Below, one piece after another: positions 46,955-50,155 of a stretch of 64,000 bases of DNA (position 1 is the first letter of the stretch; every line of letters starts with the position of its first letter). The position numbers and the translations under genes were made by a program. This DNA comes from Roseinatronobacter alkalisoli (GTDB lineage Bacteria; Pseudomonadota; Alphaproteobacteria; Rhodobacterales; Rhodobacteraceae): assembly GCF_028745735.1 (NCBI RefSeq), contig NZ_JAQZSM010000004.1, positions 62,001 to 126,000 of the forward strand, written 5' to 3'. Below the pieces are notes generated by a model, which worked only from the letters and a program-made list of their open reading frames with translations, was not told where the DNA came from and made no database searches.

Positions 46955-49381
46955 ATGAGCGATTTCAACACTGACCTGCCCCTCTCCGCCCGCGCCATGG
47001 CCGCGCGTCCTGCCCCATATCTGGAAGGGTTGAACCCCGCGCAGCGCCAGGCGGTCGAAGCGCTGGATGGTCCTGTCCTTATGCTGGCCGGCGCCGGAAC
47101 CGGCAAAACCAAGGCGCTGACTGCGCGTATTGCGCATTTGCTGAATTCCGGCCGCGCCTTTCCATCGCAAATTCTGGCTGTGACCTTTACCAACAAGGCC
47201 GCGCGCGAAATGAAGCTGCGGGTGGGTGGCTATCTGGGCGAAGCCGTGGAAGGTATGCCCTGGCTGGGCACATTCCATTCCATCAGCGCGAAATTGCTGC
47301 GCCGCCATGCCGAACTTGTGGGCCTGAAGTCCAGCTTCACCATTCTGGACAGCGATGACCAGTTGCGCCTGCTGAAGCAGTTGATTGCGGCGACCAATAT
47401 TGACGAAAAACGCTGGCCTGCGCGGTTATTGGCGGGAATCATCGACCAATGGAAAAACCACGCATGGACGCCCGAACAGGTACCCGCGCGCGAAGCCAGT
47501 GCGTTCAACAATCGCGGGACAGAAATCTACGCCGCCTATCAGGACCGGCTGAAAACCCTCAATGCCTGTGATTTCGGGGATCTGCTGTTGCATTGCATCC
47601 GGATTTTTCAGGTGCATCCGGATGTGCTGGAAACGTATCAGACACGGTTTCGCTATATTCTGGTGGACGAATATCAGGATACCAATATCGCGCAATATCT
47701 GTGGCTGCGGCTGCTGGCGGGCGGGCATAAGAATATCTGCTGCGTGGGCGATGACGATCAGTCGATCTATGGCTGGCGCGGGGCCGAAGTGGGTAATATC
47801 CTGCGGTTTGAACGCGATTTTCCGGGCGCAACTGTCGTGCGGCTGGAACAGAATTACCGCTCCACCCCGCATATTCTGGCTGCCGCAGGTCAGGTGATTG
47901 CCGGCAATGAAGGGCGTCTTGGCAAAACCCTGTGGACCGAAGCGGAAACCGGCGAAAAGGTGCGCTTGATCGGGCATTGGGATGGTGAGGAAGAAGCGCG
48001 CTGGATCGGCGAACAGATAGAGGATTTGCAACGCGGCACGCGCGGGCTTGCCCCGTTCGCGTTGAACCAAATGGCCATTCTGGTGCGCGCCAGCCACCAG
48101 ATGCGCGCGTTTGAAGACCGTTTTCTGACAATCGGCCTGCCGTATCGCGTGATCGGTGGCCCGCGATTTTATGAACGCATGGAAATCCGTGACGCGATGG
48201 CCTATTTCCGGCTGGCGGTCAGTCCCGGTGACGATCTGGCCTTTGAACGGGTCGTCAATACCCCCAAGCGGGGCTTGGGAAGCGAGACCCAGAAGAAGAT
48301 TCAACGAATTGCCCGTGTAAACGGTGTGCCTTTGGTGCAGGGTGCCGCAATGGCGATCGAGGCGGGCGAGATCAAGGGCAAGGGCGCGGCGCAATTGCGC
48401 AGGCTGATTGAAAACATTGCTCGCTGGAATCATTCAGTTTCTGGGACATTTACCCCTTCCACAGTTTCAAACGATGAATTGATCATTGACGACGAAGATG
48501 TAGGGGTAGCGGCCCGTGTTTTCGAAAGTGGGGCAAGCGCAGAGTCACATATCGAACTAGCCGAACAGATACTGGAAGAATCCGGCTATACAGAAATGTG
48601 GCTGAATGACAAAACGCCCGAAGCGCCGGGGCGGCTGGACAACCTGAAAGAACTGGTCAAGGCGTTGGAATCATTTGAAAACATACAAGGGTTTCTGGAA
48701 CATATTGCGCTGGTCATGGATAATGACAGCGATGGTTCCGTCGACAAGGTCAGCATCATGACCCTGCATGGCTCCAAGGGGCTGGAATTTCCCGTGGTGT
48801 TTTTGCCGGGCTGGGAAGACGGGTTGTTTCCGTCGCAGCGTTCCATGGACGAAACCGGATCGAAAGGTCTGGAGGAGGAACGCCGCCTTGCCTATGTCGG
48901 AATCACCCGCGCAGAGCAGCTTTGCACCATCAGTTTTGCCGCGAATCGCAGGGTGTATGGGCAATGGCAGGCACAGATGCCGTCGCGCTTCGTGGATGAA
49001 CTGCCCGCGGATCATGTTGATATCCTGACGCCGCCGGGCCTGTATGGTGGTGGGGGTATGGCTGCGACAATGGCGCAAAGCAGTGTTGAAGACCGCGCAA
49101 TGCGGGCCGATGCCTATAATTCACCGGGTTGGCGGCGCTTTCAGGCCGCGCAATCACGCCCGGCCGCGCAGCCGCGCCAAGCGTCGAAGATGGTAATTGA
49201 CGGGACCGCATTGCCGGTGTTCGAAGAAGGCGCGCGCGTTTTCCACACCAAATTCGGCTATGGGCGCGTGGCGTCCGTTGACGGTGACAAGCTGTTCGTT
49301 GAATTCGAAAAATCCGGCCCGCGCCATATCGTGGCAAGATTCGTAGTTCCCGCAGATCAGGCAGATGATCTGCCGTTCTGA
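46955..49381 (+). CDS. uvrD: UvrD/PcrA-type DNA helicase II
   Basis: An 808-residue superfamily 1 helicase for repair and replication. Motif I (LAGAGTGKTKALTARIA, about 43-59), Ia (VTFTNKAAREMK), II (VDEYQDTNIAQY), III (CVGDDDQSIYGWRGAE), IV (LEQNYRSTPHIL), V (VSIMTLHGSKGLEFPVVFLP) and VI (EERRLAYVGITRAE) are all present, and the C-terminus has the Tudor-like RNA polymerase-binding segment (GARVFHTKFGYGRVASVDGD). The start at 46955 is chosen because upstream codons in frame lack conservation. Confidence 0.9.
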   Translation: MSDFNTDLPLSARAMAARPAPYLEGLNPAQRQAVEALDGPVLMLAGAGTGKTKALTARIAHLLNSGRAFPSQILAVTFTNKAAREMKLRVGGYLGEAVEGMPWLGTFHSISAKLLRRHAELVGLKSSFTILDSDDQLRLLKQLIAATNIDEKRWPARLLAGIIDQWKNHAWTPEQVPAREASAFNNRGTEIYAAYQDRLKTLNACDFGDLLLHCIRIFQVHPDVLETYQTRFRYILVDEYQDTNIAQYLWLRLLAGGHKNICCVGDDDQSIYGWRGAEVGNILRFERDFPGATVVRLEQNYRSTPHILAAAGQVIAGNEGRLGKTLWTEAETGEKVRLIGHWDGEEEARWIGEQIEDLQRGTRGLAPFALNQMAILVRASHQMRAFEDRFLTIGLPYRVIGGPRFYERMEIRDAMAYFRLAVSPGDDLAFERVVNTPKRGLGSETQKKIQRIARVNGVPLVQGAAMAIEAGEIKGKGAAQLRRLIENIARWNHSVSGTFTPSTVSNDELIIDDEDVGVAARVFESGASAESHIELAEQILEESGYTEMWLNDKTPEAPGRLDNLKELVKALESFENIQGFLEHIALVMDNDSDGSVDKVSIMTLHGSKGLEFPVVFLPGWEDGLFPSQRSMDETGSKGLEEERRLAYVGITRAEQLCTISFAANRRVYGQWQAQMPSRFVDELPADHVDILTPPGLYGGGGMAATMAQSSVEDRAMRADAYNSPGWRRFQAAQSRPAAQPRQASKMVIDGTALPVFEEGARVFHTKFGYGRVASVDGDKLFVEFEKSGPRHIVARFVVPADQADDLPF

Positions 49382-49426
49382 CGGAAACGCAAACCGGCGC
49401 ACCAATACTGTTTTAAGAATCAAAAA

Positions 49427-49462
49427 GGCGGCAGTCCCAGGGAGGAGGAGGGGACTGCCGCC
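49427..49462 (-). ncRNA. CcsR-like sRNA hairpin 6, also the array terminator
   Basis: A perfect 12-bp stem (GGCGGCAGTCCC with GGGACTGCCGCC) carries a 12-nt loop that contains CCTCCTCCC. It is the longest stem in the array and is followed by TTTTTG on the minus strand, so this last copy ends transcription of the whole DUF1127-sRNA unit. Confidence 0.82.
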
Positions 49463-49472
49463 GATTTGCCAT

Positions 49473-49496
49473 GACCCCAGGGAGGAGGAGGGGGCC
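49473..49496 (-). ncRNA. CcsR-like sRNA hairpin 5
   Basis: A 6-bp stem (GGCCCC with GGGGTC, one G-T pair) holds the same 12-nt loop with CCTCCTCCC. It is one of the weaker stems of the array. Confidence 0.7.
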
Positions 49497-49539
49497 CGTT
49501 GCAATGTTCGGGTCCGTGACCCGATATTCTAGGGATAGA

Positions 49540-49563
49540 GCAGCCAGGGAGGAGGAGGGCTGC
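49540..49563 (-). ncRNA. CcsR-like sRNA hairpin 4
   Basis: Stem GCAGCC with GGCTGC (6 bp) around the 12-nt loop containing CCTCCTCCC. The stem sequence differs from the other copies, while the loop is identical, so selection acts on the loop. Confidence 0.75.
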
Positions 49564-49580
49564 GGTATCCCAACGACCAC

Positions 49581-49605
49581 CACCCAGGGAGGAGGAGAGG
49601 GGGTG
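49581..49605 (-). ncRNA. CcsR-like sRNA hairpin 3
   Basis: Stem CACCC with GGGTG (5 bp) around a 15-nt loop that contains CCTCCTCCC. It is the least stable copy; the loop has three extra bases. Confidence 0.65.
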
Positions 49606-49652
49606 TTCGTTTCGTGACCGGCTTCTGGCTTTCTGCCATGACCGGAATAGGG

Positions 49653-49687
49653 TGACGGTGATTGGGGAGGAGGATCAATCACCGTCG
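49653..49687 (-). ncRNA. CcsR-like sRNA hairpin 2
   Basis: GACGGTGATTG pairs with CAATCACCGTC (11 bp) around an 11-nt loop with CCTCCTCCC. The loop edge differs slightly (ATCCTCCTCCC), the only copy without the CTCCTCCTCCCT form. Confidence 0.78.
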
Positions 49688-49692
49688 CTCTC

Positions 49693-49718
49693 GGACCCCA
49701 GGGAGGAGGAGGGGGTCC
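49693..49718 (-). ncRNA. CcsR-like sRNA hairpin 1 (promoter-proximal)
   Basis: GGACCCC pairs with GGGGTCC (7 bp) around the 12-nt loop with CCTCCTCCC, only 7 bp after the stop codon of the DUF1127 gene. The arrangement equals that of R. sphaeroides, where CcsR1-4 follow the DUF1127 gene ccaF1 on one transcript. Confidence 0.8.
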
Positions 49719-49725
49719 AAAACCA

Positions 49726-49938
49726 TTAATTCTCGTATGCGGCCTCGTATGCCAGGCGCGTGATCATGGAGCGGCTGATGCCGAGATCTTCCAGTTCACG
49801 GCTGCTCAGGCTGCTCAGCTCATCATGGGTTCGTTTGTAAACCCGGTAGCGCGACATCGAATCTGCTACGCTTTCAACCCAACCCATCAGGTAGGCAACC
49901 GGGCGAAAGGAACCTGCATTTGCGGTTATATGTGCCAT
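49726..49938 (-). CDS. DUF1127 small protein (CcaF1-like), co-transcribed with sRNA array
   Basis: A 70-residue protein with an Arg-rich DUF1127 domain in its C-terminal half (RTHDELSSLSSRELEDLGIS then RSMITRLAYEAAYEN). The start at 49938 has GAGAAGG upstream. In R. sphaeroides the equivalent protein, CcaF1, binds RNA and affects maturation of the CcsR sRNAs encoded just behind it; the same gene order is present here. The upstream spacer has a possible heat-shock-sigma promoter. Confidence 0.85.
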   Translation of the reverse strand: MAHITANAGSFRPVAYLMGWVESVADSMSRYRVYKRTHDELSSLSSRELEDLGISRSMITRLAYEAAYEN

Positions 49939-49994
49939 GTTTTGCCTTCTCTTCTCACTGTGCTGCGGCGAGTGCCGCGTCTTCTTGTGATTGA

Positions 49995-50021
49995 AGATAG
50001 CGATTTGCTGCGCTCGCACAA
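49995..50021 (-). promoter_or_regulatory. candidate stress (RpoH-type) promoter of the DUF1127-sRNA operon
   Basis: On the minus strand TTGTGC (50021-50016) and CTATCT (50000-49995) are 15 bp apart, about 57 bp before the start codon. The C-starting -10 recalls RpoH-type promoters, which drive the homologous operon in R. sphaeroides. The fit is only partial. Confidence 0.33.
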
Positions 50022-50155
50022 TAGACGATGCTGCAATGCGGCTATGCGCTAGCGACATGTTTACGCTAGGGAAATTTAAAAAATGCCTGAAAATTGGACC
50101 ATCCGGTCCGGAATTCCGGCGTGCATTGGCGCGAAAGTTGACTTCGCAATGCAGA

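Follow-up and report, generated by a model that had tools for sequence, protein, structure and literature searches.

A DUF1127 gene followed by six hairpins

The window, by which we mean the whole 64-kb stretch of DNA that was analysed, carries on its minus strand a small gene of the DUF1127 family and, behind it, an array of six hairpins (Table 1). As in CcsR ("cuckoo") loci, the gene, recognized by its match to PF06568, is co-directional with the hairpins and directly upstream of them, and the first hairpin core begins 17 nt past its last sense codon. The motif CCTCCTCCC occurs exactly six times in the window, always on the minus strand and between 49440 and 49709 (within 270 bp), compared to a mean of 0.48 and a maximum of 3 in 100 shuffles of the window. 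Across the whole genome the motif alone is unenriched (21 places vs. 19 for a reversed-pattern control), and it is therefore its clustering and the hairpins that count. A scan of both strands of the window for stems around CTCCTCC yielded these six hairpins and nothing else; each contains one of the six motifs, all are 3′ of the DUF1127 gene, and their loop sequence is CUCCUCCUCCCU. A relaxed hairpin core gave unstable counts and was left unused, and the strict core was kept. The predicted folding energy of the 313-nt 3′ region is -138.9 kcal/mol, versus -104.4 +/- 4.5 kcal/mol for its shuffles (z = -7.6), none of 100 being as good. The original prediction of six minus-strand hairpins with CCUCCUCCC loops behind a DUF1127 gene is thus borne out by the motif count, the hairpin scan, and Pfam.

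The last hairpin, H6, has a 12-bp stem followed by UUUUU, is nearly constant in 16 sequences from the genus, and likely doubles as an intrinsic terminator; it was not among the output of a terminator scan that accepts loops of 3-8 nt only. On the plus strand, a UvrD-type helicase gene that ends at 49381 converges with the array, 40 bp from the U-run (49382-49421). Read-through from that gene would yield RNA antisense to all six loops.

Table 1. Features of the locus, in the reading direction of the gene (window coordinates)
Feature	Coordinates	Strand	Evidence
O1 CGCATAGCCGCATTG, VtlR-box-like	50034..50048	-	3 mismatches to Brucella box, 0 to family consensus YGCATRGCNGCATTG (consensus derived from alignments in the present analysis)
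O2 TTGTGCGAGCGCAGCA, overlaps putative -35	50006..50021	-	Only exact match to the 17-nt consensus form in the 4.84-Mb genome
Putative -10 CTATCTT, heat-shock-sigma-like by inspection	49994..50000	-	Position conserved in genus alignment and family profile
DUF1127 gene, 70 aa, ccaF1-like, ATG start at 49938	49726..49938	-	PF06568, 47.1 bits (cut-off 23.3)
CcsR-type unit A: H1 (49687-49724) and H2 (49654-49686), both with CCUCCUCCC loops	49654..49724	-	Fold; RF02791 at 49648-49723, 37.6 bits, below cut-off
S1, motif-free spacer hairpin	49618..49645	-	Fold; helices 3 and 4
CcsR-type unit B: H3 (49572-49611) and H4 (49532-49571)	49532..49611	-	Fold, helices 5 to 8; RF02791 at 49530-49613, 14.3 bits, E 1.4
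S2, motif-free spacer hairpin	49508..49524	-	Fold; helix 9, 89.1% of cells paired
CcsR-type unit C: H5 (49466-49504) and H6 (49427-49462)	49427..49504	-	RF02791 at 49423-49506, 48.4 bits, below cut-off
Run of five U, directly 3′ of H6	49422..49426	-	Read directly

Three two-hairpin units

The exact motifs are spaced by 36, 78, 40, 67, and 40 nt, that is, as three pairs. The fold of the 3′ region comprises eight hairpins in the order H1-H2, S1, H3-H4, S2, H5-H6, in which S1 and S2 are motif-free and placed between the pairs. Two hairpins per RNA is also the reported form of R. sphaeroides RS0680a, in which each of two stem loops has the motif (PMC3927594), and of the Rfam model of CcsR1 (RF02791; 83 positions, two hairpins). 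At curated thresholds, Rfam reported one tRNA and nothing else in the whole window. A relaxed search, covering 49300-50150, placed one RF02791 match on each pair, all three below the gathering cut-off and the third weak (Table 1). Judged by spacing, fold, and Rfam matches, the array of six hairpins is thus three CcsR-size two-hairpin units. Its adjacent hairpins, with CCUCCUCCC loops and stems that drift and covary, are of the CcsR/cuckoo kind. The best unit falls short of the RF02791 cut-off of 65.3 bits, and two matches to RF02344 (ar14, NfeR1), at 44.0 and 42.4 bits, fall short of that family's 58.8. Where CcsR1 is matched best (94.1 bits), however, the five sister matches in that genome (40.3-56.0 bits) are also under 65.3, and the RF02791 cut-off therefore singles out CcsR1 itself and not the whole kind.

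It had been proposed that the locus is a CcsR locus expanded to six copies. That number counts hairpins, not RNAs, and the paired layout and the two motif-free hairpins between the pairs were overlooked; the count to be set against the four CcsR RNAs reported for R. sphaeroides (CcsR1-4; PMC10253847) is three. The two-hairpin unit, together with the family hairpin counts given below, rules out a six-copy expansion.

Conservation within the genus

We searched 20 genomes of the genus, 17 of which had a match, and aligned 16 loci including that of the window (alignment A3). Locus L197, on a contig that stops shortly past the gene, was used neither in the alignment nor in the comparison of hairpin slots, L203 was left out of the slot comparison only, and second DUF1127 matches in two genomes (L208 and L209) were excluded from A3. 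There are six hairpins at 15 of the 17 loci; one of the others is cut by the contig end and the other, L203, has five that pass the strict core, its second hairpin carrying the loop variant CTCTTCCTCCC.

In 34 of the 65 consensus pairs, both sides have changed at least once, versus 17.6 +/- 2.5 in shuffles (0 of 500 reach 34), where the structure scored comes from the same alignment, minus the two outermost pairs, and the shuffles ignore relatedness. Pairing is kept in 95.0% of cells across the 16 sequences and drops to 34.1-52.7% when the partner is slid by 1-3 columns. Pairs changed on both sides occur in all eight hairpins: helices 1 and 2 of unit A have 4 and 7 such pairs, and in S1, helices 3 and 4 are paired in 100.0% and 87.5% of cells, respectively. 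The array is real and well conserved.

The slot comparison (15 genomes) agrees with the earlier description of nearly invariant loops on differing stems. Mean loop identity is 0.86 between species and 0.85 between the slots of one genome. The 12-nt arms of slots 1-5 are less alike, at 0.47-0.54 (species) and 0.38 (slots); in slot 6, which is likely the terminator, sequence identity between species is 0.88. The further suggestion, that the variety of stems sets different half-lives or partners, found no support, as the arms of slots 1-5 drift between species while pairing is kept. Such drift is as expected if the stems serve mainly as scaffolds.

Occurrence in the family

At least one motif pair was found in 217 of 295 genomes of the family, a count to be read with the reversed-pattern control, which itself matches some genomes and is not independent (CCCTCCTCC lies within longer loops). 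Among the fetched loci, 122 of 145 clusters of at least two hairpins have a DUF1127 ORF no more than 1.5 kb upstream. These DUF1127-linked clusters comprise 2-24 hairpins, six being the commonest number in a sample chosen mostly by motif. We also chose loci by protein match: the best 30 of the 50 genomes with a match (61 searched), plus 18 other loci of the genus. Leaving aside the window's own, the 29 top-scoring loci (one per genome) have 0-14 hairpins with a median of 8, and three have none. The array is thus ordinary for the family and, with six hairpins, below the family median; arrays longer than six being ordinary, six does not amount to an expansion. Among DUF1127-linked clusters with at least four hairpins, the number is even in 78 of 108 and short and long spacings alternate strictly in 51 of 108. 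The paired layout is therefore common, but not universal.

Two arrays are very long, with 24 (L018, in genome G165) and 22 hairpins (L137). In L018 the spacing cycles through 39, 47, and 54 nt, with a period of about 140 bp, as if blocks of three hairpins had recently been amplified in tandem. Paired-motif matches in records titled Phycisphaerae, Bacillota, Geomonas, and Nonomuraea (L064, L070, L097, and L104) gave no hairpin cluster in the scan and are probably due to chance.

A stand-alone unit in the same genome

A fourth two-hairpin unit, of the CcsR type, stands alone in this genome, on the plus strand (G000:C76:38656-38737; L158 1657-1738), and matches RF02791 at 56.9 bits, below the cut-off. 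Its two flanking ORFs look, on inspection, like genes for an ABC-transporter ATPase and a ribosome GTPase, and no DUF1127 gene was seen beside it. A DNA search of the 20 genomes of the genus found it in none of the 19 others; the sole further match was the main array beside the DUF1127 gene of one species. By inspection, all that it shares with the main promoter is GCCGCATTGCAGCA, located about 28-29 nt before a CTAT.

A predicted CcsR-type operon

We consider it highly probable that the locus is a CcsR-type operon, in which a DUF1127 gene and three two-hairpin RNAs would share a transcript and the RNAs, once processed, would repress targets. What the DNA itself shows is the genes, hairpins arranged in pairs, folds that carry compensatory changes, conservation in genus and family, and the conserved promoter elements described below. 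The original assignment to a ccaF1-CcsR-type locus with loops resembling an anti-Shine-Dalgarno sequence stands. We infer the transcription, cleavage, targets, and repression. A stress-type promoter would give one transcript comprising the small ccaF1-like DUF1127 gene, the three two-hairpin RNAs, and the terminator hairpin. RNase E, aided by the DUF1127 protein, would then cut the linkers between the units to release three RNAs of roughly 70-85 nt, each exposing two CCUCCUCCC loops that could pair with the Shine-Dalgarno regions of target mRNAs, such that translation is repressed; having several units would mainly supply dose and redundancy. The precedents come from R. sphaeroides, where ccaF1 and CcsR1-4 are reported to be co-transcribed and processed by RNase E (PMC10253847, PMC8625941, PMC8307010), and from Sinorhizobium meliloti, where redundant CCUCCUCCC motifs of NfeR1 are described as silencing ntrB at its translation start (PMC10746234).

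The hairpins could instead be a structured 3′ untranslated tail with a terminator, which stabilizes the DUF1127 mRNA and gives rise to neither separate RNAs nor action in trans. All six are directly 3′ of the gene, the last is terminator-like, and a scan for sigma-70-type promoters found none downstream of the gene. A tail, however, has no need of near-constant loops on drifting stems, one two-hairpin copy occurs by itself at another place in the genome, albeit with its RF02791 score below the cut-off, and the R. sphaeroides RNAs are reported to be processed out of their transcript (PMC10253847, PMC8625941), all of which makes a mere tail unlikely. A CsrA-type sponge, with GGA loops, was set aside, as the loops on the transcribed strand are CCUCC and not GGA.

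The predicted operon shares with R. sphaeroides ccaF1-CcsR1-4 (RF02791 for CcsR1) the DUF1127 gene, and the tandem two-hairpin RNAs with CCUCCUCCC loops, behind which it has a likely terminator. It differs in having three units rather than four, none of which reaches the Rfam gathering score. The present locus has motif-free hairpins between its units. NfeR1 (alpha-r14; RF02344) of S. meliloti has the same loop motif on unrelated stems and is described as activated by a LysR-type regulator (PMC10746234). Unlike the array here, NfeR1 is a single sRNA of three hairpins under a promoter of its own. What the array adds is one well-preserved ccaF1-CcsR-type locus, a corrected way of counting copies, and genus-level covariation for each hairpin.

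Two conserved promoter elements

In the genus alignment, and likewise in the family, conserved blocks lie upstream of the DUF1127 gene, including the elements O1 and O2 (Table 1). The upstream regions behind the family counts were partly fetched by motif and hence biased, include some genomes twice, and are all related, so that the counts are not independent; four of 168 regions were shorter than 260 nt and were omitted from the counts for the O2 pattern, PhaR site, and VtlR box (n = 164). With these qualifications, the O2 pattern TTGYGCRNNYGCAGCR was found in 143 of 164 regions, versus a shuffle mean of 0.1. For the family promoter profile, 13 of the 168 regions had no usable TTGTGC and were omitted, and 149 of the remaining 155 are unique. 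O2 starts with the -35-like TTGTGC, and the profile has a -10-like CTATCTT or CCCATCTT downstream; TTGTGC and CTATCTT are conserved in both the genus alignment and the family profile, whilst a scan for sigma-70-type promoters found none at the locus. In the genome as a whole there are 75 O2-like places with up to two mismatches (5 for a reversed control), giving 30 loci. The DUF1127 promoter is the sole one of these in which mismatch-free O1 and O2 are spaced as in the family; the runner-up with that spacing has 4 and 2 mismatches. As judged from the DNA, these elements are a conserved two-site candidate operator ahead of the DUF1127 gene, which is new here.

Candidate regulators

The O1 region is within three mismatches of the Brucella VtlR box (PMC12595884) in 143 of 164 upstream regions. 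At the same threshold the box was found in 31 of 820 shuffles, 10 of 718 pha-locus tiles, and, when reversed, in 0 of 164 regions. The box is thus present across the family, but the window's own site, with three mismatches, is marginal by itself, being at a level that 31 of the 820 shuffles reach, and the case therefore rests on family-wide conservation. Among the 48 protein-fetched loci, including the window's, the box accompanies 41 of 43 with an array and three of five without, which suggests that it is tied to the DUF1127 gene and not to the hairpins.

In Brucella, the reported targets of VtlR include three DUF1127 proteins and AbcR2 (PMC12595884), and Agrobacterium VtlR is reported to directly activate abcR1, vrsA, and atu1667, the last of which encodes a small protein and has Brucella orthologues that VtlR activates (PMC7486931). 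Reading these two reports together, we take atu1667 and its Brucella orthologues to be DUF1127 genes. Furthermore, the VtlR orthologue LsrB is described as activating the sRNA NfeR1, whose loops likewise carry CCUCCUCCC (PMC10746234). The present locus resembles the VtlR regulon of Brucella and Agrobacterium in that DUF1127 genes and sRNAs lie behind a box, here a putative one, of the GCAT-N3-TG-N3-T type (PMC7486931, PMC12595884). In that regulon, the small-protein genes and the AbcR/VrsA sRNAs are listed as separate targets, whereas here they would share one putative transcript. The LsrB motif at nfeR1 is given as TGCA-N6-GCAT (PMC10746234), compared to five bases between the halves in O1.

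O1 and O2 could also be an RpoHI/RpoHII promoter plus other conserved DNA, with no part played by a VtlR-like LysR-type regulator. R. sphaeroides ccaF1 is reported to have such a promoter (PMC10253847), O2 opens with the -35-like TTGTGC and is followed by the -10-like CTATCTT, and LsrB/VtlR has been stated to be unique to Rhizobiales in a comparison that included R. sphaeroides (PMC11975290). However, the conserved GCAGCA half of O2 falls in the spacer between -35 and -10, and O1 is centred about 22 bp upstream of TTGTGC. A sigma factor alone requires no 15-bp sequence at that position. In addition, all 143 matches to the VtlR box within three mismatches have the same orientation. We regard a heat-shock promoter without a LysR-type regulator as a serious possibility, but one we tend to doubt.

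PhaR, the sensor of PHB, was proposed as the regulator from the enrichment of CTGCN3GCAG, which PMC12542648 gives as the PhaR site of R. sphaeroides, and the operon would then answer to the storage polymer. Of the 164 upstream regions, 103 contain this sequence, whereas shuffles average 2.0 and never exceed 4, and the PhaR N-terminal domain was found in 285 of the 295 family genomes. We rejected PhaR mainly on the central triplets: 88 of 107 sites have ATA or ATG there, whereas the R-N-Y form is seen in 62 of 72 strand readings at pha loci; the operator here does not have the R-N-Y centre of the PhaR type. Moreover, the O2 pattern is absent from all 60 fetched pha loci, and the looser TTGYGCN4GCA occurs in 11 of them. 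Ten of the 295 genomes had no PhaR match, two of these also having no DUF1127 match, and in the eight DUF1127 loci of the others O1 has three mismatches or fewer in five, four in two, and seven in one. This is a weak test, as five of the genomes are less than 90% complete; in the three nearly complete ones, O1 has 3, 4, and 7 mismatches and only one keeps it. Taken together, control by PhaR is very unlikely. Elsewhere in the genome (L318, G000:C1:320419-320457), upstream of phaR, two CTGCN3GCAG sites lie around TTGAAA, ahead of a phasin match that is weak (22.1 bits; cut-off 24.9), a layout as expected for PhaR control.

Returning to the VtlR box, we put at close to evenly balanced the prospect that the DUF1127 genes of this family are under a LysR-type circuit of the VtlR/LsrB kind, which would here drive the CcsR RNAs on the same transcript. 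We go no higher because of the Rhizobiales-only statement, the RpoHI/RpoHII promoter described for R. sphaeroides, the marginal O1 of the window, the related and biased regions, and the differing LsrB spacing. If such a circuit does exist, then either a VtlR orthologue has gone unrecognized or the box is read by a different regulator, and one ancient module, comprising a LysR regulator, a DUF1127 protein, and anti-Shine-Dalgarno sRNAs, would span two alphaproteobacterial orders. The operator would be of the LysR type if the VtlR-box reading holds; in other respects the locus, as far as its DNA indicates, is a three-unit CcsR array of an ordinary sort. The promoter result therefore matters more than the array, in that it offers a family-wide candidate operator for an sRNA operon and points to the LysR regulator of DUF1127 genes and sRNAs in Rhizobiales. 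In the sections of the report cited here, transcription of the ccaF1-CcsR operon is otherwise tied to heat-shock sigma factors alone (PMC10253847), and among the open-access papers listed for these regulators, none points, by its title or term counts, to a CcsR locus controlled by VtlR or PhaR.

The genome also has a second DUF1127 gene, which is without hairpins and has a poor box (4 mismatches). Two other members of the genus likewise have second DUF1127 genes without hairpins (L208 and L209), which are preceded by O1, with three mismatches, and O2.
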